This document shows positions 17,403 to 28,758 of a stretch of 64,000 nt of DNA, in pieces. The position numbers and the translations under genes are program-made. The notes beneath the pieces were generated by a model. That model searched no databases, was not told the DNA's origin, and saw only the letters and a list, made by a program, of their open reading frames with translations. The DNA comes from Neglectibacter sp. X58. Its GTDB lineage: Bacteria > Bacillota > Clostridia > Oscillospirales > Acutalibacteraceae. Position 1 is the stretch's first letter, and the number at the start of each line of letters is the position of its first letter. Where the stretch lies: assembly GCF_009936035.1 (NCBI RefSeq), contig NZ_QWEO01000001.1, positions 310,001-374,000 on the forward strand. Direction: 5' to 3'.

Positions 17403-17440
17403 GGGCACACTGTAAAGGCAATTTGCTTTGCAGTGTGCCC
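17403..17440. terminator. Convergent terminator
   Basis: Arms GGGCACACTG (17403-17412) and CAGTGTGCCC (17431-17440), inner GGCAA/TTGC pairing, followed by CTTCTTTTCT on the plus strand. Separates the dehydrogenase gene from the opposing repair gene. Confidence 0.8.
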
Positions 17441-17451
17441 CTTCTTTTCTG

Positions 17452-20400
17452 TTAAAACAGGCGGAGCTGCTCGGCTGGCTTTTCCCTTAGAGGGATTTTC
17501 TCCTTTTCCAGCAGTTCCGGTGGGATTTCCTCCATAAAGGGAGAAGGCTCCCCGGAGGAAAGCAAGACAAGCTCCTCCCGGGCGCGGGTCATGCCCACAT
17601 AAAACAGGCGGCGTTCCTCCTCGGCGTCTGCCTGGCCTTTGGCGGATTCCAGGGGCAGGGTCCCCTTGTCCACTCCAGCTAGAAAGACTACGGAGAATTC
17701 CAGCCCCTTGGCCCCGTGCAAGGTGCTGAGATACACGGCCCCGGAGGCGTAAGTTTTGCCGGACTGGCGGCGCAGATCTCCCTCCTCGCCTAACAGCAGG
17801 GTGTTGAGGAAATCTTCCAGGCTGGAGGAAAAGGCCGCGACGCCTGCCAGGCGCTTTAATGCCCGGGACTTTGGCTGCCTGGCTGCCCAGCTTTCCAAAA
17901 GCTTTTCCGGCTTTTCCTTTACCCGGGGCAGATACTCTTCCGCTGCCTGCAAAAAGCCCTGCAGTGCCGGGATATCCCCCAGCCGCCCTTTCAAAGGCTC
18001 TATGCTCCCCTGCCCGGTTTCCCCGCAGCAGGCGGCGGCTGTTTCCCGGTGGTAAGCAGGGCAGCCCCACAAAAGCTCCAGGCAGGATTTTAAAGCGCCC
18101 GCATCTGTAAAGTCCAGCAGGAACCGGAAAAAGGCGGCTGTGCCCAGCACCTCCTTTTCCTGCAGGAAATCATCCCGGCCCCCGATTACGCAGGGGATGT
18201 CCTCCCGGCGCAGGCAGCGTTCCAAGGCCTCAAGCTGGCGGCGGGTGCGGCACAGCACCGCAATTTCAGAAAAAGCATAGAAGGCTTCCCGCTGGCGCGC
18301 CCCCAGCATGTCCATGCCCCCTGTCATGGCGGCAATTTCCTTGGCGCAGAATATCCCCTGGGAAAACTCGTCCTCTCCTTTGCACCACCGCACAAGGGGG
18401 CCTTTAGGGGCTTCGCTTGCAAGGACGCGCGGCCCGCCGGGGTTATGGGAGATGACTTCCAGGGCGCTCTGCAGGATTTCCGGGGTGGAGCGGTAGTTTC
18501 GCACAAGGCGTATTTCCCGCAGGCCGGGCCTGTCCTCCTTTAGCTGCTGGAAGCACCTGCCTGCCGCGCCCCGGAAGCCATAGATGGACTGATCCGGATC
18601 CCCGATGACAAAAAGGCTTTTCCCCTTTTCCGCCCAATGCAGGGCCAGCCGGTATTGCAGGCTGTTGCAGTCCTGGAACTCGTCTATAAGCAGATGGGTA
18701 AGGCTTTTGGGGGCTGGCGGGTCAAGGGCCAGGGATTGTAAAAGAAGATCGTCAAAGTCCAGCCGCCCCTCCAGCAGGATGCGGTATTCCTCCAGCAAAC
18801 TCTCCTCCACTGCCGTTTCCTTTGGCCCCATGCCGTTTTTCCGCCGGGAAAGCTCCTCTAAAAACCGCCTGGGCGTGACACGAATTCCCCGGCCCTCCAA
18901 AAGCTTTTCCGCAAGGGAGAGGGCCTCGCTTTCGCTTACCAGCCCGGGCTTTCCCAACTGCTGCCAGCACACGCTGTGGAAGGTGCCAATGGTCATGCCG
19001 GAAACAGCCCGCCTGCCTCCCAGCTTTGACGCGAGCCTGTCCCGCAATTCCCCAGCGGCCTGGTTTGTAAAGGTGACTGCCGTAATCTCCCGGGGCTTTG
19101 CCCCCGTTTGGGCGAGCAGGAATTCCACCCTGTCCGCAAGGGTTTTAGTCTTCCCGCTTCCCGGCCCGGCTATCACCGCCACTACTGGCTCCACAGCGCA
19201 GGCAGCGGCCTGCTGCTCCGGGTTTGGTATGGCGGATTGGGGAAGCAGAGGCTTTTCCGCGGCTTTCACCTGGGGCTTTTTCCCGGCTTTTTTCTTTTGG
19301 CCAGGCTTTTTTCCGGCGCTGTACAGGGCGAACAGGCTGGTCTGCCCCTCAAGGGCCTCTATTTCCGCTGGGGTCAGCAGAATCACAGCGCCAAACTGCC
19401 CGTCAAACCCAGCTTTGCGCTCCACCCGGCCCTGGCGCAGGCGGCCAATTCCCTCCGCCACAGCAGGCCCTGCCACCTGGCTGATGTCGGAAAGAGGGCT
19501 TTCCCGCAGGATGGAAAACTCCGGGCCAAGCTCTGCTATCATGTGTTCGTAACAGGCCCGCACCTTTTTGCTGCCCTCCGAATACCCGCAGCAGGCTCCT
19601 ATCACCTCCGGCAGGGGCGCTAAGCTTTCAAAGGGCTTGGCCTTTACAGGCCGGAAGCCTTCTTCCCTGTCTGCCAGTTCTTCCACCCGGTGCTCCACCC
19701 CGATGGTCAGCTTTTTCCCGCAAACCGGGCAGCGTCCCCCCAGGGCCTCCGTTTCGGCGGGAGAAAGCACCACGCCGCAGTTCCGGTGGCCGTCCAGATG
19801 GTATTTCCCCTCCTCTGGGAAAAATTCCAGGGTGCCCCCAAAGCCTTCTCCCGTCTCAATGGCCTGTTTCAGCGCAGGATAGGACAGCTCCGTATCCAAC
19901 AGGTTCCCTTCCCGGCCCAGCTTCTGGGGGGAATGAGCGTCAGAGTTTGACACCAGGGTGTAGCCGTCCAACTGGGAAACCCGCCAGTTCATGGGAGGAT
20001 CTGAGGAAAGCCCTGTTTCCAGGGCATGAATTTCCCCGGACATATCCCCAAAACATTCCTCTATGGTATTAAAGCCGGAAAAAGCCCCAAAAAGGGAAAA
20101 ATGGGGCGTCCAGATATGGGCGGGAATGAACATGGCCTGGGGGCAGGCCTCCAGGGTGATTTCCAGCAAATCCCGGCAGTCCAGGCCCAGGATGGGCCTG
20201 CCGTCGGAGTGAAGGTTGCCGATGGCCTCCAGGCGGGCGGAAAGCCGGCGGGCGCTGTCGAAATCAGGCAGGAGGATAACCGAATGCACCTTGCGCACCC
20301 TGCCGTCCTTCTTGTAGATGGAGCTGATTTCCCCGGAAATCACAAAGCGCGCAGCCGCCTCAGGCCCGTCCAGAAGCTGGTGCTCCGTCTTTAACGCATA

Positions 20401-20586
20401 AAATCCTTCCTCCGCAGGCACAAGCTGATCCTCCAGCTCCCTGCGCCATGCCGGGTGGGTGAAGTCTCCTGTGCCCAGCAGGGCAATCCCTTTTTTCCTG
20501 GCCCAGAGATCCAGGTGAGGCCCGTCGCAGTCCCGGCTGGTGGCCCGGGCGTACCGGGAATGGATGTGCAGATCAGCAATGTACAT
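17452..20586 (-). CDS. Endonuclease Q-like nuclease fused to UvrD/PcrA-family helicase
   Basis: 1044-residue fusion. Residues 1-420 match the endonuclease Q/TIGR00375 family (PHP-like fold): ADLHIHSRYAR (4-14), LLGTGDFTHP (36-45), IPAHIWTPHFSLFG (154-167), VSNSDAHSP (212-220) and a zinc site with C270 and CPVC (286-289) followed by KKLTIGVEHRVEELA. EndoQ cuts 5' of deaminated bases and abasic sites. Residues about 455-1044 are a superfamily 1A helicase: Walker A AGPGSGKT (473-480), LLIDEFQD, GDPDQSIYGFRGA, RNYRST, STLHGAKGLEF, FYVGMTRARE. Two candidate sliding-clamp motifs: QTSLF (415-419) at the junction and QLRLF as the last five residues. The ATG at 20586 follows AAGGGGGGG. Repair coupled to unwinding is an inference. 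Confidence 0.9.
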   Translation of the reverse strand: MYIADLHIHSRYARATSRDCDGPHLDLWARKKGIALLGTGDFTHPAWRRELEDQLVPAEEGFYALKTEHQLLDGPEAAARFVISGEISSIYKKDGRVRKVHSVILLPDFDSARRLSARLEAIGNLHSDGRPILGLDCRDLLEITLEACPQAMFIPAHIWTPHFSLFGAFSGFNTIEECFGDMSGEIHALETGLSSDPPMNWRVSQLDGYTLVSNSDAHSPQKLGREGNLLDTELSYPALKQAIETGEGFGGTLEFFPEEGKYHLDGHRNCGVVLSPAETEALGGRCPVCGKKLTIGVEHRVEELADREEGFRPVKAKPFESLAPLPEVIGACCGYSEGSKKVRACYEHMIAELGPEFSILRESPLSDISQVAGPAVAEGIGRLRQGRVERKAGFDGQFGAVILLTPAEIEALEGQTSLFALYSAGKKPGQKKKAGKKPQVKAAEKPLLPQSAIPNPEQQAAACAVEPVVAVIAGPGSGKTKTLADRVEFLLAQTGAKPREITAVTFTNQAAGELRDRLASKLGGRRAVSGMTIGTFHSVCWQQLGKPGLVSESEALSLAEKLLEGRGIRVTPRRFLEELSRRKNGMGPKETAVEESLLEEYRILLEGRLDFDDLLLQSLALDPPAPKSLTHLLIDEFQDCNSLQYRLALHWAEKGKSLFVIGDPDQSIYGFRGAAGRCFQQLKEDRPGLREIRLVRNYRSTPEILQSALEVISHNPGGPRVLASEAPKGPLVRWCKGEDEFSQGIFCAKEIAAMTGGMDMLGARQREAFYAFSEIAVLCRTRRQLEALERCLRREDIPCVIGGRDDFLQEKEVLGTAAFFRFLLDFTDAGALKSCLELLWGCPAYHRETAAACCGETGQGSIEPLKGRLGDIPALQGFLQAAEEYLPRVKEKPEKLLESWAARQPKSRALKRLAGVAAFSSSLEDFLNTLLLGEEGDLRRQSGKTYASGAVYLSTLHGAKGLEFSVVFLAGVDKGTLPLESAKGQADAEEERRLFYVGMTRAREELVLLSSGEPSPFMEEIPPELLEKEKIPLREKPAEQLRLF

Positions 20587-20658
20587 GGAACCCCCCCTTT
20601 TTTGTGTAAATCCGTGTGCTTTACACAATTGGCTGTTTCATACTTTTACGGATAATAT

Positions 20659-20686
20659 ATTATAGCATACCAAGCCAGGCTTGCAA
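20659..20686 (-). promoter_or_regulatory. Sigma-A promoter of the EndoQ-UvrD gene
   Basis: Minus strand TTGCAA (20681-20686), 16-base spacer, TATAAT (20659-20664), about 73 bases upstream of the start. Confidence 0.65.
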
Positions 20687-20959: not shown

Positions 20960-21114
20960 CTTGTAATGCCGATGTGCTTTACAGGCAGGCTTTTGACAGC
21001 GCAAATGGCAGCAGGGCCTTGCTTTTTCATGCTTCCTGTGGCAAAATAAGGAAAACACCCTGCCATAATGGGGCGAAAATCAAGGAAGATATTGCGGAGG
21101 GCAGGAGGGTATTT

Positions 21115-21537
21115 ATGAAAATCCTGAAAGAGTTTAAAGAGTTCATCTCCAAGGGCAATGTGCTGGATATGGCGGTAGGCGTTATTATTGGCGGCGCTTT
21201 TACAGCCATTGTCAATTCCCTGGTAAACGACATTTTTATGCCCCTGCTAGGGCTGCTTACAGGCGGCATGAATTTTGCCGGGCTTTCCCTGCGGCTGGGG
21301 GGAAATGACGGGGACGCGCTGCAATACGGCGCGTTTATTGCTGCTGTCATAAACTTCCTGCTTATTGCCCTGGTGCTGTTTTTGGTTATCAAGGCTATCA
21401 ACCGGCTGCGCAATTTGAAAAAAGCCGAACCGGATAAGCCAGCCCCTGCGGTGAAGGCCTGCCCTTACTGCAAAAGCGAAATTGCCCTGGAAGCTTCCCG
21501 CTGCCCCCACTGCACTTCTGTGCTGGAAGAGGGATAA
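21115..21537 (+). CDS. mscL: Large-conductance mechanosensitive channel MscL with zinc ribbon
   Basis: 140-residue channel opened by membrane tension to release solutes on hypo-osmotic shock. Starts MKILKEFKEFISKGNVLDMAVG, the canonical MscL N-terminus and first membrane helix with GVIIGGAF; the second helix is AAVINFLLIALVLFLVI. Instead of the usual short amphipathic C-terminus it ends in a CPYCKSEI...CPHC zinc ribbon (about 115-135). The ATG at 21115 has GGAGG just ahead; an upstream in-frame extension has no family similarity. Confidence 0.95.
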   Translation: MKILKEFKEFISKGNVLDMAVGVIIGGAFTAIVNSLVNDIFMPLLGLLTGGMNFAGLSLRLGGNDGDALQYGAFIAAVINFLLIALVLFLVIKAINRLRNLKKAEPDKPAPAVKACPYCKSEIALEASRCPHCTSVLEEG

Positions 21538-21689
21538 GCATATAATCTTTTCATTCCAAAGCTGCTGATTTGGGCAAAAAAGAAAAAATTCTGCGCTTTT
21601 CAAAAACCTATTGCGCCTTTTTGTTCTTTGTGGTAGGATAGGCAAGGTAGGGACAGGCCTGCGGCACGTACCAAGTAATGATACATTCC

Positions 21690-21762
21690 AAAAGGGCTGT
21701 TGATGCAGCCCTTTTTTCTGGCACTGCCTCTTTTTATTCTGTAAAGGAAACTCTCTTTACAG
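21690..21762 (+). terminator. Terminator and inverted repeat between mscL and trkA
   Basis: AAAAGGGCTG (21690-21699) pairs with CAGCCCTTTT (21706-21715), followed by TTCTG: an intrinsic terminator. A second inverted repeat, CTGTAAAG (21739-21746) / CTTTACAG (21755-21762), has no T run and could be an operator ahead of trkA. Nothing else was seen in the roughly 300-base gap. Confidence 0.7.
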
Positions 21763-21836
21763 AGCGGATGTAAAATCATGGGAGAAAGGAATGGCGCAGG
21801 GCGCGGGAAAGCCCTGTACCCAATGGCGGTTTCTTT

Positions 21837-23201
21837 ATGAGAATTGTGATTGTGGGCGATGGCAAGGTGGGTTCCGCTCTTGCTGTACAGCTCTCCAAGG
21901 AAAATCACGATATTGTCATCATTGACAGCAATAAAATGGTGTTGCAGGAATCGGAGCAGTCTTTGGATGTGAACGTGGTATACGGCAACGGGGCGGCTTT
22001 GAAGGTGCAGAAGCAGGCTAATGTGGACGCAAGCGATCTGCTTATTGCCGCCACTTCCGCCGATGAGATCAACCTGCTGTGCTGTATTCTGGCGCGGAAG
22101 CTGGGCTGTGCCCACACTATCGCCCGGGTGCGCAACCCCGACTATTTTGGCCAGCTTTTCCTTTTGCAGGAGGAATTTGGCCTGAACATGGCCATCAATC
22201 CGGAACGGGCCACGGCAAACGAAATTTCCCGCCTGCTGCAGTTCCCCTCTTTTTTGAAGCGGGAGGCTTTTGCAAGAGGCCGGGTGGAGATTGTGGAGCT
22301 GGTGCTTAAAGGGGACAGCGTTTTGAACGGCGCGCGGCTGCTGGATCTGTATAAAATTGTGAAGGTAAAGGTGCTGGTGTGCGCGGTAAAGCGCGGCTCC
22401 CAGGTGGTTATCCCGGACGGCAATTTCACCCTGCTGGAAGGCGACAGGCTTTATGTTACGGCCTCCACCAGCGACCTGGCAAGGCTTATCCGCAGCCTGG
22501 GCATTGCCCAGAAAAAGGTGCGGGACGTGTTGATTATAGGCGGCAGCCGCATTGCCTTTTATCTGGCGGAAGATCTCATTAAGGCCGGCGTCAATGTAAA
22601 ACTGATTGAAATCGACGAGAACCGCTGCATAGAGCTTGCGGAAAACCTGCCTAAGGCCACCATCCTCCACGCAGACGGCTCTGACCGTTTTGTGCTGGAT
22701 TCCGAGGGACTGGCCCAGACAGACGCAGTGGTTACCCTGACGGACTTTGACGAGCAGAACCTTATCATTTCCATGTATGCCAATTTCCTGGGCACCTACA
22801 AGGTTATCACCAAAATCAACCGTACAGAATTCAGCGAGGTTTTAAACGAAAAGGGAATTGACTGCGTGGTAAGCCCCAAGGACTTGTGCTGCAACGACAT
22901 TGCCCGGTATGTGCGTGCCATGGGAAACCGCAAGGGCGGTTCGGTGCAGGCCCTGCACCGGCTGGTGGAGGATCAGGTGGAGGCCCTGGAGTTTACTGCC
23001 ACCAAGCAGCTCCCCCATCTGGGAGAACCCCTTTACCAGGTGGCATTAAAGCCCGGCACCCTGATTGCCAGCATCACCCGCCGGGGCAAGGTCATCATCC
23101 CCAGCGGCGGCGACTGCATTGAGCCTCATGACAACGTGGTGGTTATTTCTCCCGCAGAGCGGGGCATTGCAGACTTGAGCGATATTTTTATTGACGATTG
23201 A
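21837..23201 (+). CDS. trkA: Trk-type potassium uptake regulatory subunit TrkA
   Basis: 454 residues with two tandem RCK units, each an NAD-binding Rossmann domain (MRIVIVGDGKVGSALA at 1-16, and VLIIGGSRIAFYLAEDLI near 228-245) followed by an RCK_C domain. It sits on the cytoplasmic face of TrkH and gates K+ uptake in response to nucleotides. Same orientation as trkH two genes downstream. The start has only GGCGG as ribosome site. Confidence 0.95.
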   Translation: MRIVIVGDGKVGSALAVQLSKENHDIVIIDSNKMVLQESEQSLDVNVVYGNGAALKVQKQANVDASDLLIAATSADEINLLCCILARKLGCAHTIARVRNPDYFGQLFLLQEEFGLNMAINPERATANEISRLLQFPSFLKREAFARGRVEIVELVLKGDSVLNGARLLDLYKIVKVKVLVCAVKRGSQVVIPDGNFTLLEGDRLYVTASTSDLARLIRSLGIAQKKVRDVLIIGGSRIAFYLAEDLIKAGVNVKLIEIDENRCIELAENLPKATILHADGSDRFVLDSEGLAQTDAVVTLTDFDEQNLIISMYANFLGTYKVITKINRTEFSEVLNEKGIDCVVSPKDLCCNDIARYVRAMGNRKGGSVQALHRLVEDQVEALEFTATKQLPHLGEPLYQVALKPGTLIASITRRGKVIIPSGGDCIEPHDNVVVISPAERGIADLSDIFIDD

Positions 23202-23222
23202 CATTTTGCGGAAAGGAACGGT

Positions 23223-23579
23223 ATGGGGCATGAATCCCCTGCCGCATGGCGGTTTTTTATGGTGGAAAATCCACGGCACATTGACATCCTGGGCGCGCGC
23301 AAGGACGGGGGCGCGGATCTGGTTATGGTTTCCCCTGATCCTCTGGACGAAACGCCGGAAGGCCAGACCCTGCTGCTGGACAAGGTGGAAACCTACTTGA
23401 AATATATCCGTACCCCGGATTTCCGCGGGCAGTGCCCTGCCGCCACGCCGGAAAACACCCATGTTGTCCTGCTGGTGCGGGAGGAGCCTTCCCCCTTTAT
23501 GCAGGAGCTGCTGCAAAAAATTGCGGCATGGGTGGCGGACAACCATGCACGTTTTTTCGTGCGCATTGAAAAGGAATAA
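23223..23579 (+). CDS. DUF6572-like hypothetical protein
   Basis: 118 residues. HIDILGARKDGGADLVMVSPDPLD followed by LLLDKVETYLKYI resembles the DUF6572 pattern (short beta hairpin, a two-strand core and a helix, then a second helix FMQELLQKIAAWV). It lies between trkA and trkH, 21 bases after trkA. AAAGGAA precedes the ATG at 23223; a second ATG at 23259 is preceded by a segment nearly identical to that before trkA. Function unknown. Confidence 0.65.
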   Translation: MGHESPAAWRFFMVENPRHIDILGARKDGGADLVMVSPDPLDETPEGQTLLLDKVETYLKYIRTPDFRGQCPAATPENTHVVLLVREEPSPFMQELLQKIAAWVADNHARFFVRIEKE

Positions 23580-23653
23580 GTTTTTCCGGCTTTTATCATC
23601 TCAAATCAGGAAAGGAGCGCCCCGGATACGGCCTGGGGCCTGTGCCTGCTGCT

Positions 23654-25105
23654 ATGAATCACAGAATGATCCTGCGCTTAATCTGCTATATCCTGCGCGT
23701 GGAAGCAGTGTGCCTGCTGCCGTCTATCGGCATATCCCTCTATAAAGGGGAACATGCGGCCCTTTTCGGGCTTATCCTCTCCACCGCCCTGGCGGGCGGC
23801 CTCAGCCTGAGCACCTACCTGTTCCGTCCCCGCAGCCGGGAAATAGGCGCTAGGGAAGGCTTTCTCAGCGTGGGCCTGTGCTGGATAGCTGTGTCTGCCC
23901 TGGGCGCCCTCCCCTTCTTTCTCAGCGGCGCTATCCCCCATTTTATCGATGCCTTTTTTGAGACGATTTCCGGCTTCACCACCACCGGCGCCAGTATCCT
24001 CACCGATGTGGAGGCCATGCCCATGGGCCTGCTTTATTGGCGCAGCTTTACCCACTGGCTGGGCGGCATGGGGGTGCTGGTGTTCCTGTTAGCCGTAGTG
24101 CCCATGGGAAAGGGGAAAAATTCCCTGCTGTACGTAATGCGGGCGGAAAGCCCCGGCCCCCAGGTGGACAAGCTGGTGCCCAAGCTGCAAAACAGCGCTA
24201 AAATATTATATGCCATTTATATCGCCTTGACCCTTATCCAGACTATACTGCTGCTGATAGGCGGCATGCCCTTTTTCGACAGCATCACCACAGCTTTCGG
24301 TACGGCGGGCACCGGCGGCTTTGGCATCAAAGGGGACAGCCTTGCCGGGTACAGCCACTATCTGCAGGGGGTCTGTACAGTTTTCATGGCGCTGTTCGGG
24401 ATAAATTTCAGCGTGTTCTATCTGCTGCTCTTACGGCAGTTTTCCCGGGTGCTCCACAACCAGGAGCTGTGGACGTATTTAGGCGTTATGATAGGCTCTG
24501 CCGGGCTTATTGCCTGGAATATCCTGCCCCAGTTTGGCGGCAACGTATGGGAAGCCCTGCACCACGCGGCTTTCCAGGTTTCCTCTATTATGACTACCAC
24601 TGGCTTTGCCACTGTGGATTTTAACCAATGGCCCACCCTTTCCAAAACCCTTTTGGTGGTGTTGATGGTGCTGGGGGCCTGCGCCGGATCTACTGGCGGC
24701 GGTATCAAGGTGGCCCGGGCTGTGGTGCTTACAAAAGCAGGGCACCGGAACATCAAGCGGATGCTGCGGCCCAGGTCTGTTGCCCAGGTGCATATAGACG
24801 GGCAGCTTGCCAGCGAGGACATGATTCAGAACGCCTACAGCTATCTTTCCGCTTACTGCGCCATTATCCTCTTGTCTATGCTGCTGATTGCCAGAGACGG
24901 CTTCTCCCTGGAAACAAACATAACCGCCGTATTGGCCTGCCTGAACAATATCGGGCCGGGCCTTGACATGGTTGGCCCCACAGGGAATTTCTCCCATTTT
25001 TCCGGTTTCAGCAAGCTGGTGCTTTCCTTTGACATGCTGGTGGGCCGGCTGGAAATCTTCCCCATGCTCCTTTTGTTTGTGCCCTCGGCCTGGCGGAAAA
25101 GCTGA
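23654..25105 (+). CDS. trkH: Trk-type potassium transporter membrane subunit TrkH
   Basis: 483 residues from the ATG at 23654, with the four repeated M1-P-M2 units of the K+ channel-derived SKT superfamily. Selectivity-filter-like segments are [27 protein letters not shown] and the last loop [19 protein letters not shown]. TrkA encoded upstream is its regulator. An in-frame GTG at 23642 adds four residues. Confidence 0.95.
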
Positions 25106-25131
25106 AAAGCGGGATTTGGAGTGATTGGCTG

Positions 25132-25740
25132 ATGAACAAAACAATCGCAAAGGCGGGGGCTTTTATCGTAACGGTTTCCGTGCTGCTGTTTGCCCTCTGT
25201 ATGCTTATTCCCTTTGACTTTGGAAGCTATTTTGTGTGTATGCTGCTGCCTATCGGATACATCATGGCGGCCGCCGGCTTTTGCAAGGAAAGCGATGAAA
25301 AGCATAAGGTGGCGGCTCTTGCTGGAATGGCCTTTGCCGTGTTGTATGCTGGCTTCATCTTCCTGGTATATTTTGCCCAGACTACATCCGTCCGGCTGGA
25401 CGGGCTTAACGAGCAGGCCATAAGGATCCTCGATTTTTCAAGGGGCGGGCTGATTTTCAATTATGACCTGCTTGGATATGGCATGATGGCGCTTTCGACT
25501 TTCTTTCTGGGGCTTACGATAGAGGCAAAGACAAAAGCGGACAAATGGTTACAGGTTTTGATGGTGGTTCATGGAATTTTCTTTTTCTCCTGTTTTATAC
25601 TGCCCATGACAGGCGTGTTCCGCTCTATGGCGGACGGGGAGAACAGCCTGGGCGGCGTTATAGCGCTGGAATTCTGGTGCGCCTATTTTATCCCCATCGG
25701 CATTTTATCCTTTATCCATTTTAGGAGAAGCAATTTGTAA
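25132..25740 (+). CDS. Hypothetical integral membrane protein
   Basis: 202 residues with about six hydrophobic segments (starting AGAFIVTVSVLLFALCML, and later YIMAAAGF, AFAVLYAGFIFLVYF, LLGYGMMALSTFFLGL, VVHGIFFFSCFILPM and FWCAYFIPIGILSFI). I do not recognise a family. It begins 26 bases after trkH in the same direction, so it may be co-transcribed, and ends at the terminator at 25771. Confidence 0.7.
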   Translation: MNKTIAKAGAFIVTVSVLLFALCMLIPFDFGSYFVCMLLPIGYIMAAAGFCKESDEKHKVAALAGMAFAVLYAGFIFLVYFAQTTSVRLDGLNEQAIRILDFSRGGLIFNYDLLGYGMMALSTFFLGLTIEAKTKADKWLQVLMVVHGIFFFSCFILPMTGVFRSMADGENSLGGVIALEFWCAYFIPIGILSFIHFRRSNL

Positions 25741-25770
25741 GAACCGCCATACAGAAGCACACAGCATAGC

Positions 25771-25803
25771 GCGTAAGACAAGCCATGATGGCCTGTCTTA
25801 CGC
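25771..25803. terminator. Convergent terminator
   Basis: GCGTAAGACA (25771-25780) / TGTCTTACGC (25794-25803) with an inner GCC/GGC pairing and a following ATTTTTC run on the plus strand; between the membrane protein gene and the opposing DtxR-type regulator. Confidence 0.85.
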
Positions 25804-25809
25804 ATTTTT

Positions 25810-26232
25810 CTATTTGGAGGGGGTTTCCAGCCCCTCTAAAAATTTTTCTATATTTGCCACAGTGCGGGGCGACAGGAAGTGCTCGATTTTTTCCACCTCT
25901 TCCAGCTCGCTTTCTGTCTGGTTAATGGTACACAGAAGCCTGCCCACCACCCGGTGCCTGTGTACCAGATAGGCCCCCATGCGCCTGCCCCATTCCGTCA
26001 GGGTGATGTAACCGTATTTGGGAAACTCAATCAGCCCCTGGCCCCGGAGGTTTGCCGCCATCTTGGAGGCGGAGGGCGGCTTTACGTGCAGGGCCTGGGC
26101 CAGGGCTGTGATGCGCACATAGCCCTCCTCCCCCATGCGGTATATCATTTCCAGATAGTCCTCCATGGATGCGGTAAGCTGCCCATGCTCCAGCAGCGTA
26201 TACCCTTTCATGGTGTAAAACCCTTCCTGCAT
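25810..26232 (-). CDS. DtxR/MntR-family metal-dependent regulator
   Basis: 140 residues. The N-terminal winged helix includes SMEDYLEMIYRM, RITALAQALHVKPPSASKMAANL (recognition helix) and YGYITLTEWGR, followed by the dimerisation and metal-sensing helices (HRHRVVGRLL, ELEEVEKIEHFLS). No SH3-like third domain, as in MntR. The ATG at 26232 has GGAGG seven bases ahead. It diverges from feoAB, so Fe2+ or Mn2+ control of iron uptake is the likely role, by context. Confidence 0.92.
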   Translation of the reverse strand: MQEGFYTMKGYTLLEHGQLTASMEDYLEMIYRMGEEGYVRITALAQALHVKPPSASKMAANLRGQGLIEFPKYGYITLTEWGRRMGAYLVHRHRVVGRLLCTINQTESELEEVEKIEHFLSPRTVANIEKFLEGLETPSK

Positions 26233-26255
26233 CCCGGCTCCTCCCGTCACAAGTT

Positions 26256-26286
26256 TTTCTCTCAGGAATATAGTAGTGGAGAGAAA
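26256..26286. promoter_or_regulatory. Inverted repeat in the DtxR-feoA intergenic region
   Basis: TTTCTCTC (26256-26263) and GAGAGAAA (26279-26286), 15 bases apart, between the divergent regulator and feoA. A possible operator for the regulator; it does not match a known MntR or DtxR consensus. Confidence 0.35.
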
Positions 26287-26331
26287 GAATTTTGCCTTTC
26301 CCTAACAAATTATTCAGGAGTGACTGTATAT

Positions 26332-26574
26332 ATGAAACCATTCAGCAATCTTTCCAGCCTGCTGCCAGGGCAGTCGGCTGCTGTAACGGAGCTGTCCGCC
26401 CAAGGCCCTATGCGCCGCCGCCTGCAGGATATCGGCCTTGTACATGGCACAGTTGTAAAATGCCTGGGGGCAAGCCCTTTGGGTGACCCCTCTGCCTATT
26501 TAATCCGTGGGGCTGTTATCGCCCTGCGCAGCCAGGACGCCGCCGGGGTTCTGCTGGACGGGCCGGCGGTTTGA
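26332..26574 (+). CDS. feoA: Ferrous iron transport protein A
   Basis: 80-residue SH3-like cytoplasmic protein that supports FeoB. MRRRLQDIGLVHGTVVKCLGASPLGDPSAYLIRGAVIALRS is the FeoA core, split here by ordinary residues. ATG at 26332, with AGGAG about 11 bases upstream. feoB follows after 27 bases. Confidence 0.93.
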   Translation: MKPFSNLSSLLPGQSAAVTELSAQGPMRRRLQDIGLVHGTVVKCLGASPLGDPSAYLIRGAVIALRSQDAAGVLLDGPAV

Positions 26575-26601
26575 CGCCGAAGAAAGGAGCGTGGCAGAAC
26601 C

Positions 26602-28758
26602 ATGGGGCTTTCTAAGGACTCCACCGGGGCGCGTGCCGCTGGGAGCGAACTGGTTATTGAGAAAAAAGAGCCGGGAGATCTGGTGCTGGCACTGGCGGGC
26701 AATCCCAACGTGGGCAAAAGCACTGTGTTTAACGCTTTAACTGGAATGCATCAGCATACTGGTAACTGGCCCGGAAAAACTGTGACCAATGCCCAGGGAT
26801 ATGTAAACCGCCAAAATCAGGGGTATGTTCTGGTGGATTTACCTGGATGCTACTCCCTGCTGGCCCATTCCGCCGAGGAAGAAGTGGCCCGGGACTTCCT
26901 CTGCTTCGGCGGCGCGGACGCTGCTGTGGTGGTGTGCGACGCCACCTGCTTGGAGCGGAATTTAAACCTGGTGCTGCAGGCCATGGAGATTACGCCCCGG
27001 GTAGTGGTGTGCGTGAACCTTTTGGACGAGGCCAGGCGCAAGGGCGTCAAGGTTCATCTGGAGAAGCTTTCAGAGCTTTTAGGCGTGCCGGTGGTGGGCG
27101 CCTCTGCCCGCAGCGGCACAGGCCTGGAAAAGCTTTTAGAGGAGGCGGGAAAAAGCGCCCGGGGTCTGTCTCCTGAGGCTGGCAGCGCCCCTATCCCCTA
27201 TTCCCCCTTTACAGAGGAAGCTGTGGCAAAGCTGCAGCCTGTTGTAGAGGGCTTGTGCGGGGGGCGGGTCAATGCCCGGTGGCTGGCCCTGAAGCTGCTG
27301 GACAGCAACGACACAAGCCTGGACCTTGCTATGGAGAAAAACCTGGGCCTGCGCCTGCGGGCACAGCCGGAGGTGCGGGAAATCCTGGAGGCCTTAGAAA
27401 AGCAGTGGGAAAAGGAAGGCCTTACCCCGGAGCGGCTGCGGGATGACATTGCCGCCGGGGCTGTGGGCAAGGCAGAGGAGATTGCCCGGCAGGCGGTTTC
27501 CTTTGGGCAAAACAGCTACAGCGAACGGGACAGGAAATGGGATCGGCTTTTAACAGGCAAGGCCACAGGGTTCCCTCTTATGCTGCTTTTGCTGCTGGGG
27601 ATTTTCTGGCTTACCATCACCGGGGCAAACTATCCCTCCCAGCTTCTCAGCACTGCCCTTTTCTGGCTGGGCGATCGCTTAGGGGATCTGTGCGCCCTGT
27701 GCCAGCTTCCCCCCTTTCTCACTGGGCTGCTGGTTGACGGCATGTACCGCACCCTTGCCTGGGTGGTTTCTGTAATGCTGCCGCCCATGGCGATTTTCTT
27801 CCCCCTCTTTACCCTGCTGGAGGATTTGGGGTATCTGCCCCGGGTGGCCTTTAACCTGGACAAATGCTTTCAGGCCTGCGGGGCCTGCGGGAAGCAGTCC
27901 CTCACCACTGCCATGGGATTTGGCTGCAACGCCGCCGGCGTGGTGGGGTGCCGCATTATCGACTCCCCCCGGGAACGGCTGATTGCCATGCTCACCAATA
28001 ATTTCGTCCCCTGCAACGGCAGGCTGCCCATGCTTATTGCCCTTATCACCATGTTTTTTGCCGGGGCCGCGGGAGGTTTTGGCGGCTCCCTGCTTTCTGC
28101 CCTGCTGCTTTTGTGCGTCATCCTTTTGGGTCTGTTCATGACACTGGCTGTTTCCAAATTCCTCTCCAAAACCCTGCTGAAAGGCGTGCCCTCCTCCTTC
28201 ACCTTGGAGCTGCCTCCCTACCGCCGCCCGCAAATCGGCAAGGTTATTGTCCGCTCTGTGTTTGACCGCACCCTGTTCGTGCTGGGCAGGGCAGCGGCGG
28301 TGGCTGCCCCGGCAGGGCTTATCATCTGGCTTTTAGCCAACATCACCCTGGGAGACGCTACCCTCCTGGCCCACTGCGCCAGGTTTTTAGATCCCTTCGC
28401 AAGGCTTTTCGGCCTGGACGGCGTGATACTTTTAGCCTTCATCCTGGGCCTGCCGGCAAATGAAATCGTTATCCCCCTTATCATCATGGCCTACACCAGC
28501 GGCGGGGCTTTGACAGAGCTGAGCGACCTGACAGCCCTTCATGCCCTGCTGGCAGATAACGGCTGGACATGGGTGACAGCACTGTGTACCATGCTGTTCG
28601 GGCTGATGCACTGGCCCTGCTCCACCACCTGCATGACCATCAAAAAAGAGAGCGGAAGCCTGAAATGGACGGCTGTGGCCTTCCTGCTGCCCACAGCCTG
28701 CGGGCTGGGCCTGTGCTTTATAACAGCCTGTGCCGCAAGGCTTCTGGGGCTTGCGTGA
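26602..28758 (+). CDS. feoB: Ferrous iron transport protein B (GTPase permease)
   Basis: 718 residues. N-terminal G domain: G1 GNPNVGKST (33-41), G2 region, G3 DLPG (79-82), G4 NLLD (139-142), G5 SARSG; then a helical linker and a C-terminal permease with two Gate motifs (GFGCNAAGVVGCRII and the later GLPANEIVIPLI). Imports Fe2+ in anaerobes. Ribosome site AAAGGAG. Translationally adjacent to feoA and under the same putative control. Confidence 0.97.
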   Translation: MGLSKDSTGARAAGSELVIEKKEPGDLVLALAGNPNVGKSTVFNALTGMHQHTGNWPGKTVTNAQGYVNRQNQGYVLVDLPGCYSLLAHSAEEEVARDFLCFGGADAAVVVCDATCLERNLNLVLQAMEITPRVVVCVNLLDEARRKGVKVHLEKLSELLGVPVVGASARSGTGLEKLLEEAGKSARGLSPEAGSAPIPYSPFTEEAVAKLQPVVEGLCGGRVNARWLALKLLDSNDTSLDLAMEKNLGLRLRAQPEVREILEALEKQWEKEGLTPERLRDDIAAGAVGKAEEIARQAVSFGQNSYSERDRKWDRLLTGKATGFPLMLLLLLGIFWLTITGANYPSQLLSTALFWLGDRLGDLCALCQLPPFLTGLLVDGMYRTLAWVVSVMLPPMAIFFPLFTLLEDLGYLPRVAFNLDKCFQACGACGKQSLTTAMGFGCNAAGVVGCRIIDSPRERLIAMLTNNFVPCNGRLPMLIALITMFFAGAAGGFGGSLLSALLLLCVILLGLFMTLAVSKFLSKTLLKGVPSSFTLELPPYRRPQIGKVIVRSVFDRTLFVLGRAAAVAAPAGLIIWLLANITLGDATLLAHCARFLDPFARLFGLDGVILLAFILGLPANEIVIPLIIMAYTSGGALTELSDLTALHALLADNGWTWVTALCTMLFGLMHWPCSTTCMTIKKESGSLKWTAVAFLLPTACGLGLCFITACAARLLGLA

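Follow-up and report, generated by a model that had tools for sequence, protein, structure and literature searches.

An endonuclease Q–UvrD helicase fusion with two conserved clamp-type motifs: a probable nick-and-unwind repair enzyme of bacteria

Endonuclease Q (EndoQ) cuts DNA 5' of a lesion and leaves a 3'-OH and a 5'-phosphate (passages of PMC4357722), and the Bacillus pumilus enzyme is reported to nick DNA containing uracil, hypoxanthine or an apurinic/apyrimidinic site (excerpts of PMC8438529). In the archaeal enzyme of Pyrococcus furiosus (PfuEndoQ), the exchanges E76A, H84A and H139A abolish activity, and H139, G169 and S171 shut out T and A (sections of PMC8307549). Archaeal EndoQ carries a PCNA-interacting protein (PIP) box at the C-terminal spot where bacterial homologues have beta-clamp motifs (parts of PMC4858679). 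The clamp-binding consensus is QL[S/D]LF or QxxLF, with QLSLF being the clamp motif of B. subtilis PolC (dissociation constant 3.8 uM) and QMGLF that of DnaE (portions of PMC12309361). Here we describe a gene in a 64,000-nucleotide stretch of Neglectibacter sp. X58 (contig NZ_QWEO01000001.1; the whole stretch is called the window), whose sequence and predicted structure confirm a fusion of an EndoQ-type PHP nuclease (residues 1 to about 415), a linker and a UvrD/PcrA-like superfamily 1A (SF1A) helicase. The protein is probably a clamp-tethered, two-engine 'nick and unwind' excision-repair enzyme for uracil, hypoxanthine and abasic sites. Its parts are arranged as follows.

17452 to 20586, minus strand: EndoQ-UvrD fusion gene, 1044 residues (open reading frame and translation; ATG at 20586, stop codon ending at 17452).
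19342 to 20586, minus strand: EndoQ-type PHP nuclease domain with zinc-binding region, residues 1-415 (TIGR00375, PfuEndoQ, fold and catalytic residues).
19330 to 19344, minus strand: junction clamp-type motif QTSLF, residues 415-419 (in register in 66/73 fusions).
19237 to 19341, minus strand: disordered linker, residues 416-450 (predicted local distance difference test score, pLDDT, below 50; poorly conserved beyond the motif).
17491 to 19236, minus strand: UvrD/PcrA-like SF1A helicase, residues 451-1032 (Pfam, fold matches to 4c30/4c2t with Z 39, trees).
17455 to 17469, minus strand: C-terminal clamp-type motif QLRLF, residues 1040-1044 (Q-motif within the last 28 residues in 72/73 fusions).

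The N-terminal half had been predicted from the sequence to be of the EndoQ/TIGR00375 type, and family and structure comparisons bore this out. TIGR00375 (NCBIfam) matched residues 4-400 with 163.1 bits (E 1.2e-47), the N-terminal half matched P. furiosus EndoQ in the PDB (E 1.6e-44), and residues 1-417 of the predicted structure aligned with the dU-DNA-bound EndoQ 7k30 with a Z score of 48.8 over 388 residues. Conservation was counted over 73 aligned full-length fusions, namely that of the window and 72 others that are 40-71% identical to it. The 72 others came from 80 loci retained from a scan of named genomes that gave at least 588 relatives; eight loci were omitted, since the two halves of L080 and L139 are encoded in different frames or genes, L098, L124, L131 and L138 are cut at contig ends, and L112 and L123 are short. 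Twelve mapped PfuEndoQ residues (D6, H8, H10, E76, H84, H139, E167, G169, S171, S192, D193 and H195) have identical counterparts in the window, and none of them varies among the 73 fusions. In window numbering, the metal and catalytic positions are D5, H7, H9, E86, H101, H157, E190, D216 and H218 (73/73), of which E86, H101 and H157 correspond to the positions exchanged in PfuEndoQ, and the pocket residues H139, G169 and S171 become H157, G192 and S194 (73/73). A loss of catalytic residues, named beforehand as grounds for abandoning the original prediction, was thus not seen. For the zinc site, the foreseen CPVC motif is present (C286-P-V-C289, followed by G), and a set of four cysteines is not: the site reads H267-C270-C286-C289, each position kept in 73/73 fusions, with H267 replacing the first Cys. 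The fold with its zinc-binding region (CPxCG), the metal and catalytic residues and the pocket residues all place this half within EndoQ. Its 163.1 bits fall below the curated TIGR00375 cut-off of 326.6, outside the equivalog; since only 2/398 genomes of the phylum and 2/3 control genomes pass that cut-off, the equivalog marks a narrower group than EndoQ.

That a complete SF1A helicase is joined to the EndoQ half, also part of the prediction, agrees with both domain and fold matches. Pfam UvrD-helicase and UvrD_C match residues 455-1009 above their cut-offs, and the Pfam scan of the fusion returned no nuclease domain besides the EndoQ part. The predicted structure, modelled on the 73 sequences, has a pLDDT of 87.7 and a predicted template-modelling score of 0.82, and its residues 451-1032 align with DNA-bound Deinococcus radiodurans UvrD (4c30) with Z 39.1 over 552 residues. 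K479, T480, D635, E636, R672 and R1001, which we take to be Walker and arginine-finger residues, are invariant in the 73 fusions and, together with the two Pfam domains, assign the helicase to the SF1A UvrD family. It lies far from the named equivalogs, scoring 272.5 of the required 911.2 bits for pcrA, 240.7 of 951.45 for rep and 222.5 of 1144.45 for uvrD. PcrA and UvrD carry an extra C-terminal domain; only 12 residues extend beyond the helicase core of the fusion, so there is no room for one here.

Both Q-motifs proposed as clamp hooks, QTSLF at residues 415-419 and QLRLF at the extreme C-terminus (1040-1044), are present, and the survey of orthologues found them widely kept, where non-conservation of both would have spoken against the prediction. 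The junction motif is in register in 66/73 fusions and present anywhere in the stretch in 67/73, compared to 6.1 for shuffled stretches; Q415 is kept in 72/73 and G414 in 70/73. A Q-motif occurs within the last 28 residues of 72/73 fusions, most often as QLSLF (24/73), compared to 6.3 after shuffling, a comparison that covers related rows and hence is no phylogenetic test. The sole fusion without the terminal motif (L075) stops near the edge of its contig. Among the omitted loci, the junction pattern is found in L080, L098, L112, L123, L131 and L139 and in neither L124 nor L138. In 19 more divergent fusions the junction pattern is kept in 14 and lost in five, while 16 of 17 readable C-termini, judged by eye, have a Q-motif at or near the end, the remaining one reading QLALQF. 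Both motifs sit at or in stretches with pLDDT below 50 (416-450 and 1042-1044), and the linker is poorly conserved beyond the junction motif. At two sites, a conserved QxxLF-type peptide in a disordered stretch thus has the features of a beta-clamp-type peptide, and binding to DnaN is predicted. Free UvrD-family helicases of related genomes have no Q-motif in their last 28 residues (0/20 rows, two of which are the same PcrA from the window's genome).

In Nitrospirota the two halves occur as neighbouring genes. At L139, only 9 bases separate the gene of an EndoQ (423 residues, ending in QGTLF) from the downstream gene of a helicase (650 residues, ending in QMGLF). This EndoQ is present in 39/80 Nitrospirota genomes, with no frame longer than 516 residues, and 37 of the 39 loci were read, tails being judged by eye and several stretches ending at contig ends. 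A helicase lies downstream on the same strand in 12/37 loci; relative to the EndoQ stop, its frame starts somewhere from 25 bases upstream to 85 bases downstream in 11 of these, and 839 bases downstream in L218. By a loose pattern, each of the 12 tandem EndoQs has a Q-motif at its end (last residue F in ten and L in two), and the 11 readable tandem helicases all end in one as well (QMGLF, QIGLF, QLGLF, QKxLF, QLSLL). At 25 loci no helicase lies downstream in the fetched stretch, and in 12 of them the EndoQ likewise ends in a loose Q-motif. One non-fused Nitrospirota EndoQ (L233), possibly a fusion that lost its helicase, shows a GLF stretch beyond the domain and terminates in QQKLF.

The tandem and fused helicases group together in the helicase trees, apart from PcrA (support 98), with a long AddA row straying among them in one tree. 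To account for the EndoQ tree, many label changes are required, no fewer than 8 of them on starred branches (the fused L087 being mislabelled as solo). From these quick trees, a single pairing with later losses of the helicase is tentatively favoured. Because separate Nitrospirota EndoQs end in a Q-motif and the archaeal PIP box occupies the same place, the junction motif is best read as the old C-terminal tail of EndoQ; on the simplest reading, neighbouring genes would have fused with both tails retained. We also considered an origin of the junction motif in the fusion event itself, as hinted by motif-less non-fused subfamily EndoQs in Bacillota (12/12), and rejected this for the 12/25 helicase-less Nitrospirota EndoQs that have it.

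The frequency of the fusion, left by the original prediction as a matter for survey, proved considerable: it is widespread, occurring in 51/398 Bacillota genomes and under other phylum labels. In the Bacillota sample, EndoQ of this subfamily (E ≤1e-80) was found in 60/398 genomes, classed by frame length and match range as 51 fused, eight non-fused and one unclear. The fused set comprises 47 genomes with frames of at least 980 residues and four cut by contig ends, with G504 called by frame length alone. Any TIGR00375 match (E ≤0.001) occurs in 207/398 genomes, an upper figure because matches at this limit may include distant PHP proteins (e.g. G031 and G339). Named records extend the fusion to Gemmatimonadota (L137), KSB1 (L140), Polyangium (L141), Deltaproteobacteria (L142, L143), Desulfobacteraceae (L144) and records labelled Myxococcota, where the taxon labels of metagenome-assembled genomes may be wrong, as suspected for a record called Treponema (L082). 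In the phylum of Polyangium, 4/67 genomes match, every frame having at least 1003 residues; three newly read fusions from it all contain the helicase, one with and two without the loose junction pattern. In two genomes of one genus (L156, L157), fused and non-fused EndoQ genes coexist at a distance of about 5 to 7 kb. At L148 (1018-3317), a non-fused EndoQ follows a gene that we take to encode an endonuclease III-like protein.

We further counted uracil-DNA glycosylase (UDG, PF03167) and endonuclease V (EndoV, PF04493) in the 398 Bacillota genomes, some of which are drafts. UDG is present in 357; of the 41 genomes lacking it, 20 were named outright and 21 were deduced from gaps in the match listing, the total agreeing. 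UDG is missing from 18/51 genomes with a fusion, 16/147 with other EndoQ matches and 7/191 without EndoQ, and from 0/9 with a non-fused subfamily EndoQ (the unclear genome included). Fused genomes thus differ from all others (18/51 vs 23/347, Fisher p 1.1e-7), with relatedness considered through counts of families: the 18 genomes span 13 families, where 24 families hold a fusion (hand count). Sixteen of the 18 are at least 90% complete. In family f52, four of four fused genomes lack UDG and four of four with a non-fused subfamily EndoQ have it. EndoV occurs in 7/398 genomes, none with EndoQ (p 0.0055); all 207 EndoQ genomes thus lack it, which looks as though EndoQ had taken its place. The genome of the window encodes UDG and no EndoV. 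In a model from 2015, EndoQ and EndoV jointly excise a piece that a helicase activity removes (a portion of PMC4357722). We rejected such a double cut for this phylum, as EndoV occurs in 0/51 fused genomes; given its absence from every EndoQ genome, the helicase would have just one nick to start from, that made by EndoQ.

The original prediction, that one polypeptide nicks, unwinds and is tethered to the replication clamp, is supported at the level of sequence by the tandem forms with a motif per protein, by the one shared helicase lineage and by the UDG and EndoV pattern. SF1A helicases travel in the 3'-to-5' direction; the beta clamp, a dimer, offers two pockets for peptides. In the mechanism that we propose, the pocket of the EndoQ domain would take up a flipped-out deaminated base (uracil or hypoxanthine) or abasic site, and a cut immediately 5' of the lesion would leave a 3'-OH. 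The 3'-5' helicase on the same chain would then load at the nick on the intact strand; as 3'-5' travel on this strand leads from the nick toward the lesion side, it would displace the 5'-ended lesion strand. Loading instead on the strand with the 3'-OH would peel off the undamaged side and be less useful. A clamp-bound polymerase may extend the 3'-OH, with a flap nuclease and ligase finishing the repair, while the two Q-motifs, one behind each domain, would anchor the protein to the beta clamp, possibly each in its own pocket of the dimer. We infer both activities, clamp binding, strand choice, hand-over and cellular use from these comparisons. More tentatively, and with doubt prevailing, repair by UDG and EndoV may in many bacteria be replaced by an excision pathway that needs no glycosylase and has the fusion as its working core, a single chain that cuts at the lesion, removes the strand and couples to the clamp, with a two-gene form persisting in Nitrospirota; if so, repeated losses of UDG would be possible wherever a genome had the fusion.

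Several observations weigh against a clamp-tethered repair enzyme of this kind. The fusion is patchy: it occurs in 13/245 genomes of the window's order (ten full-length, one in two frames, two fragments), and the sole other sampled genome of the genus has a PcrA-type match only. Some copies look broken, with a stop inside the match in two of the 51 fused genomes (G581, G284) and a split between frames in L015 and L080. The five divergent fusions without the junction pattern read QDALW, EPSLF (twice), EPRLF and QASLP at this site. Moreover, all 12 non-fused subfamily EndoQs read in the window's phylum lack motif and helicase alike, so neither is needed for the EndoQ role there. A UDG-family gene accompanies the fusion in 33/51 genomes, the window's own included, and the fusion is therefore often not the sole uracil enzyme; the co-occurrence tests, too, are corrected for relatedness only through family counts.

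Among other explanations, the one that fares best, unlikely as we consider it, is post-replicative processing, in which the protein, clamp-bound behind the replication fork, would cut new strands at misincorporated deoxyuridine or deoxyinosine and so supply mismatch repair with a strand-discriminating nick and a helicase. The two clamp-type motifs would suit this, and UvrD acts in Escherichia coli mismatch repair (part of PMC6876574), but the neighbour comparison revealed no link to mutS or mutL and no widely shared neighbour.

This comparison started from a fusion gene that stands singly, flanked by an oxidoreductase gene (GFO/IDH/MocA) and mscL, with two further candidate elements nearby.

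20659 to 20686, minus strand: sigma-70-like promoter TTGCAA-N16-TATAAT, 10/12 consensus (consensus scan only).
17403 to 17440, no strand assigned: terminator-like 15-bp stem between convergent genes (consensus scan only).

Directly upstream of the ribosome-binding stretch, a perfect 9-bp inverted repeat, TTGTGTAAA-N9-TTTACACAA, spans 20602-20628 and may be an operator or a leader hairpin; a comparable repeat near the start occurs in only 2/78 upstream regions of relatives. Further on this side, mscL, trkA, trkH and feoB (20974-28755) are none of them tied to repair. Over the 80 named loci, the largest group of shared neighbours has 14 members (ABC-transporter-like ATPases at scattered distances) and the next seven. 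A neighbour that we take to be the stress protein YaaA occurs at 5/80 loci (L068 and four others), in four of them starting less than 1 kb upstream of the fusion. The window's genome (3.36 Mb, 185 contigs) contains only one full-length match, the fusion itself; its other matches cover the helicase only and are, as named by resemblance, a PcrA-like helicase and an AddA-sized protein.

Anti-phage defence, in which the fusion would cut uracil-containing or base-altered phage DNA and the helicase feed the cut end to destruction, appears somewhat less likely still. It would fit the patchy presence of the fusion, a review holds that bacterial EndoQ may take part in antiviral defence (passages of PMC8307549), and, among the PADLOC models, GajB and one further helicase model match its helicase half. 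Yet the PADLOC matches listed (25 of 53) all fall in the helicase half, as expected of any UvrD relative, and the ten window neighbours gave only three weak PADLOC matches (mad3/mad8, Cas3 and E1-E2 models; best E 2.9e-7). None of the ten matches GajA (E 0.001), so that the pairing of GajB beside GajA that defines Gabija is missing, and no neighbour is common to more than 14/80 loci. A LexA-like core of an SOS-type box (at most one mismatch) is absent upstream of the window's gene and present in 3/77 upstream regions of relatives. Searches with the EndoQ half gave no match among 72,556 plasmid records (E 1e-10) and none among 50,697 phage records (E 1e-5), and among the phage matches listed for the whole protein (10 of 17) all begin at residue 455 or beyond. 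Conserved clamp-type motifs, moreover, suit repair better. That the Q-motifs serve folding or another partner and the protein works without the clamp is about as improbable, for although the five junction losses and the 12 motif-less non-fused EndoQs would agree with it, both sites lie at or in disordered stretches and fit QxxLF (as given in portions of PMC12309361), the junction motif occupies the archaeal PIP-box place (parts of PMC4858679) and free UvrD-family tails have none (0/20 rows).

A clamp-tethered nick-and-unwind enzyme would give EndoQ a named partner, a helicase, for the step after its nick. EndoQ itself emerges as a common bacterial protein, with TIGR00375 matches in 207/398 Bacillota genomes (51 with the fusion) and EndoQ in 39/80 Nitrospirota genomes, which suggests a broader reach for a compact repair route that formerly seemed confined to archaea and a few bacteria. 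In the text of the open PMC literature, an EndoQ-helicase fusion was not found described among the matches listed, a scope outside which lie figures (including Figure 9 of PMC4357722, a drawing of bacterial EndoQ domains), supplements and subscription papers. Judging from sequence, we rate the domains as already known and the joint, conserved machine as new.

Compared to known systems, the fusion shares with archaeal PfuEndoQ (PDB 5zb8, 7k30-7k33) its fold, metal, catalytic and pocket residues, zinc region and a clamp-type motif just past the domain. Whereas the Pfu enzyme stands alone and uses PCNA, the fusion has a helicase, a beta-clamp-type motif and a His in place of Cys as one zinc ligand. 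The Bacillus-type EndoQs of B. pumilus and B. subtilis belong to the same EndoQ family. Bacillus-like non-fused EndoQs, in a sample that contains neither the B. subtilis nor the B. pumilus protein, make up a branch of their own (support 100) and have no helicase; they stop near the GGGGxYGK region, and none of 30 tails has a Q-motif by eye. With UvrD, PcrA and Rep the fusion shares the SF1A fold and motifs, but its helicase stands apart from PcrA in trees and far under the equivalog cut-offs, and has a Q-motif in place of the PcrA-type tail. Like AddAB, RecBCD and AdnAB, the fusion joins an SF1 motor to a nuclease; in contrast to theirs, its nuclease is a lesion-type PHP enzyme and sits at the N-terminus.

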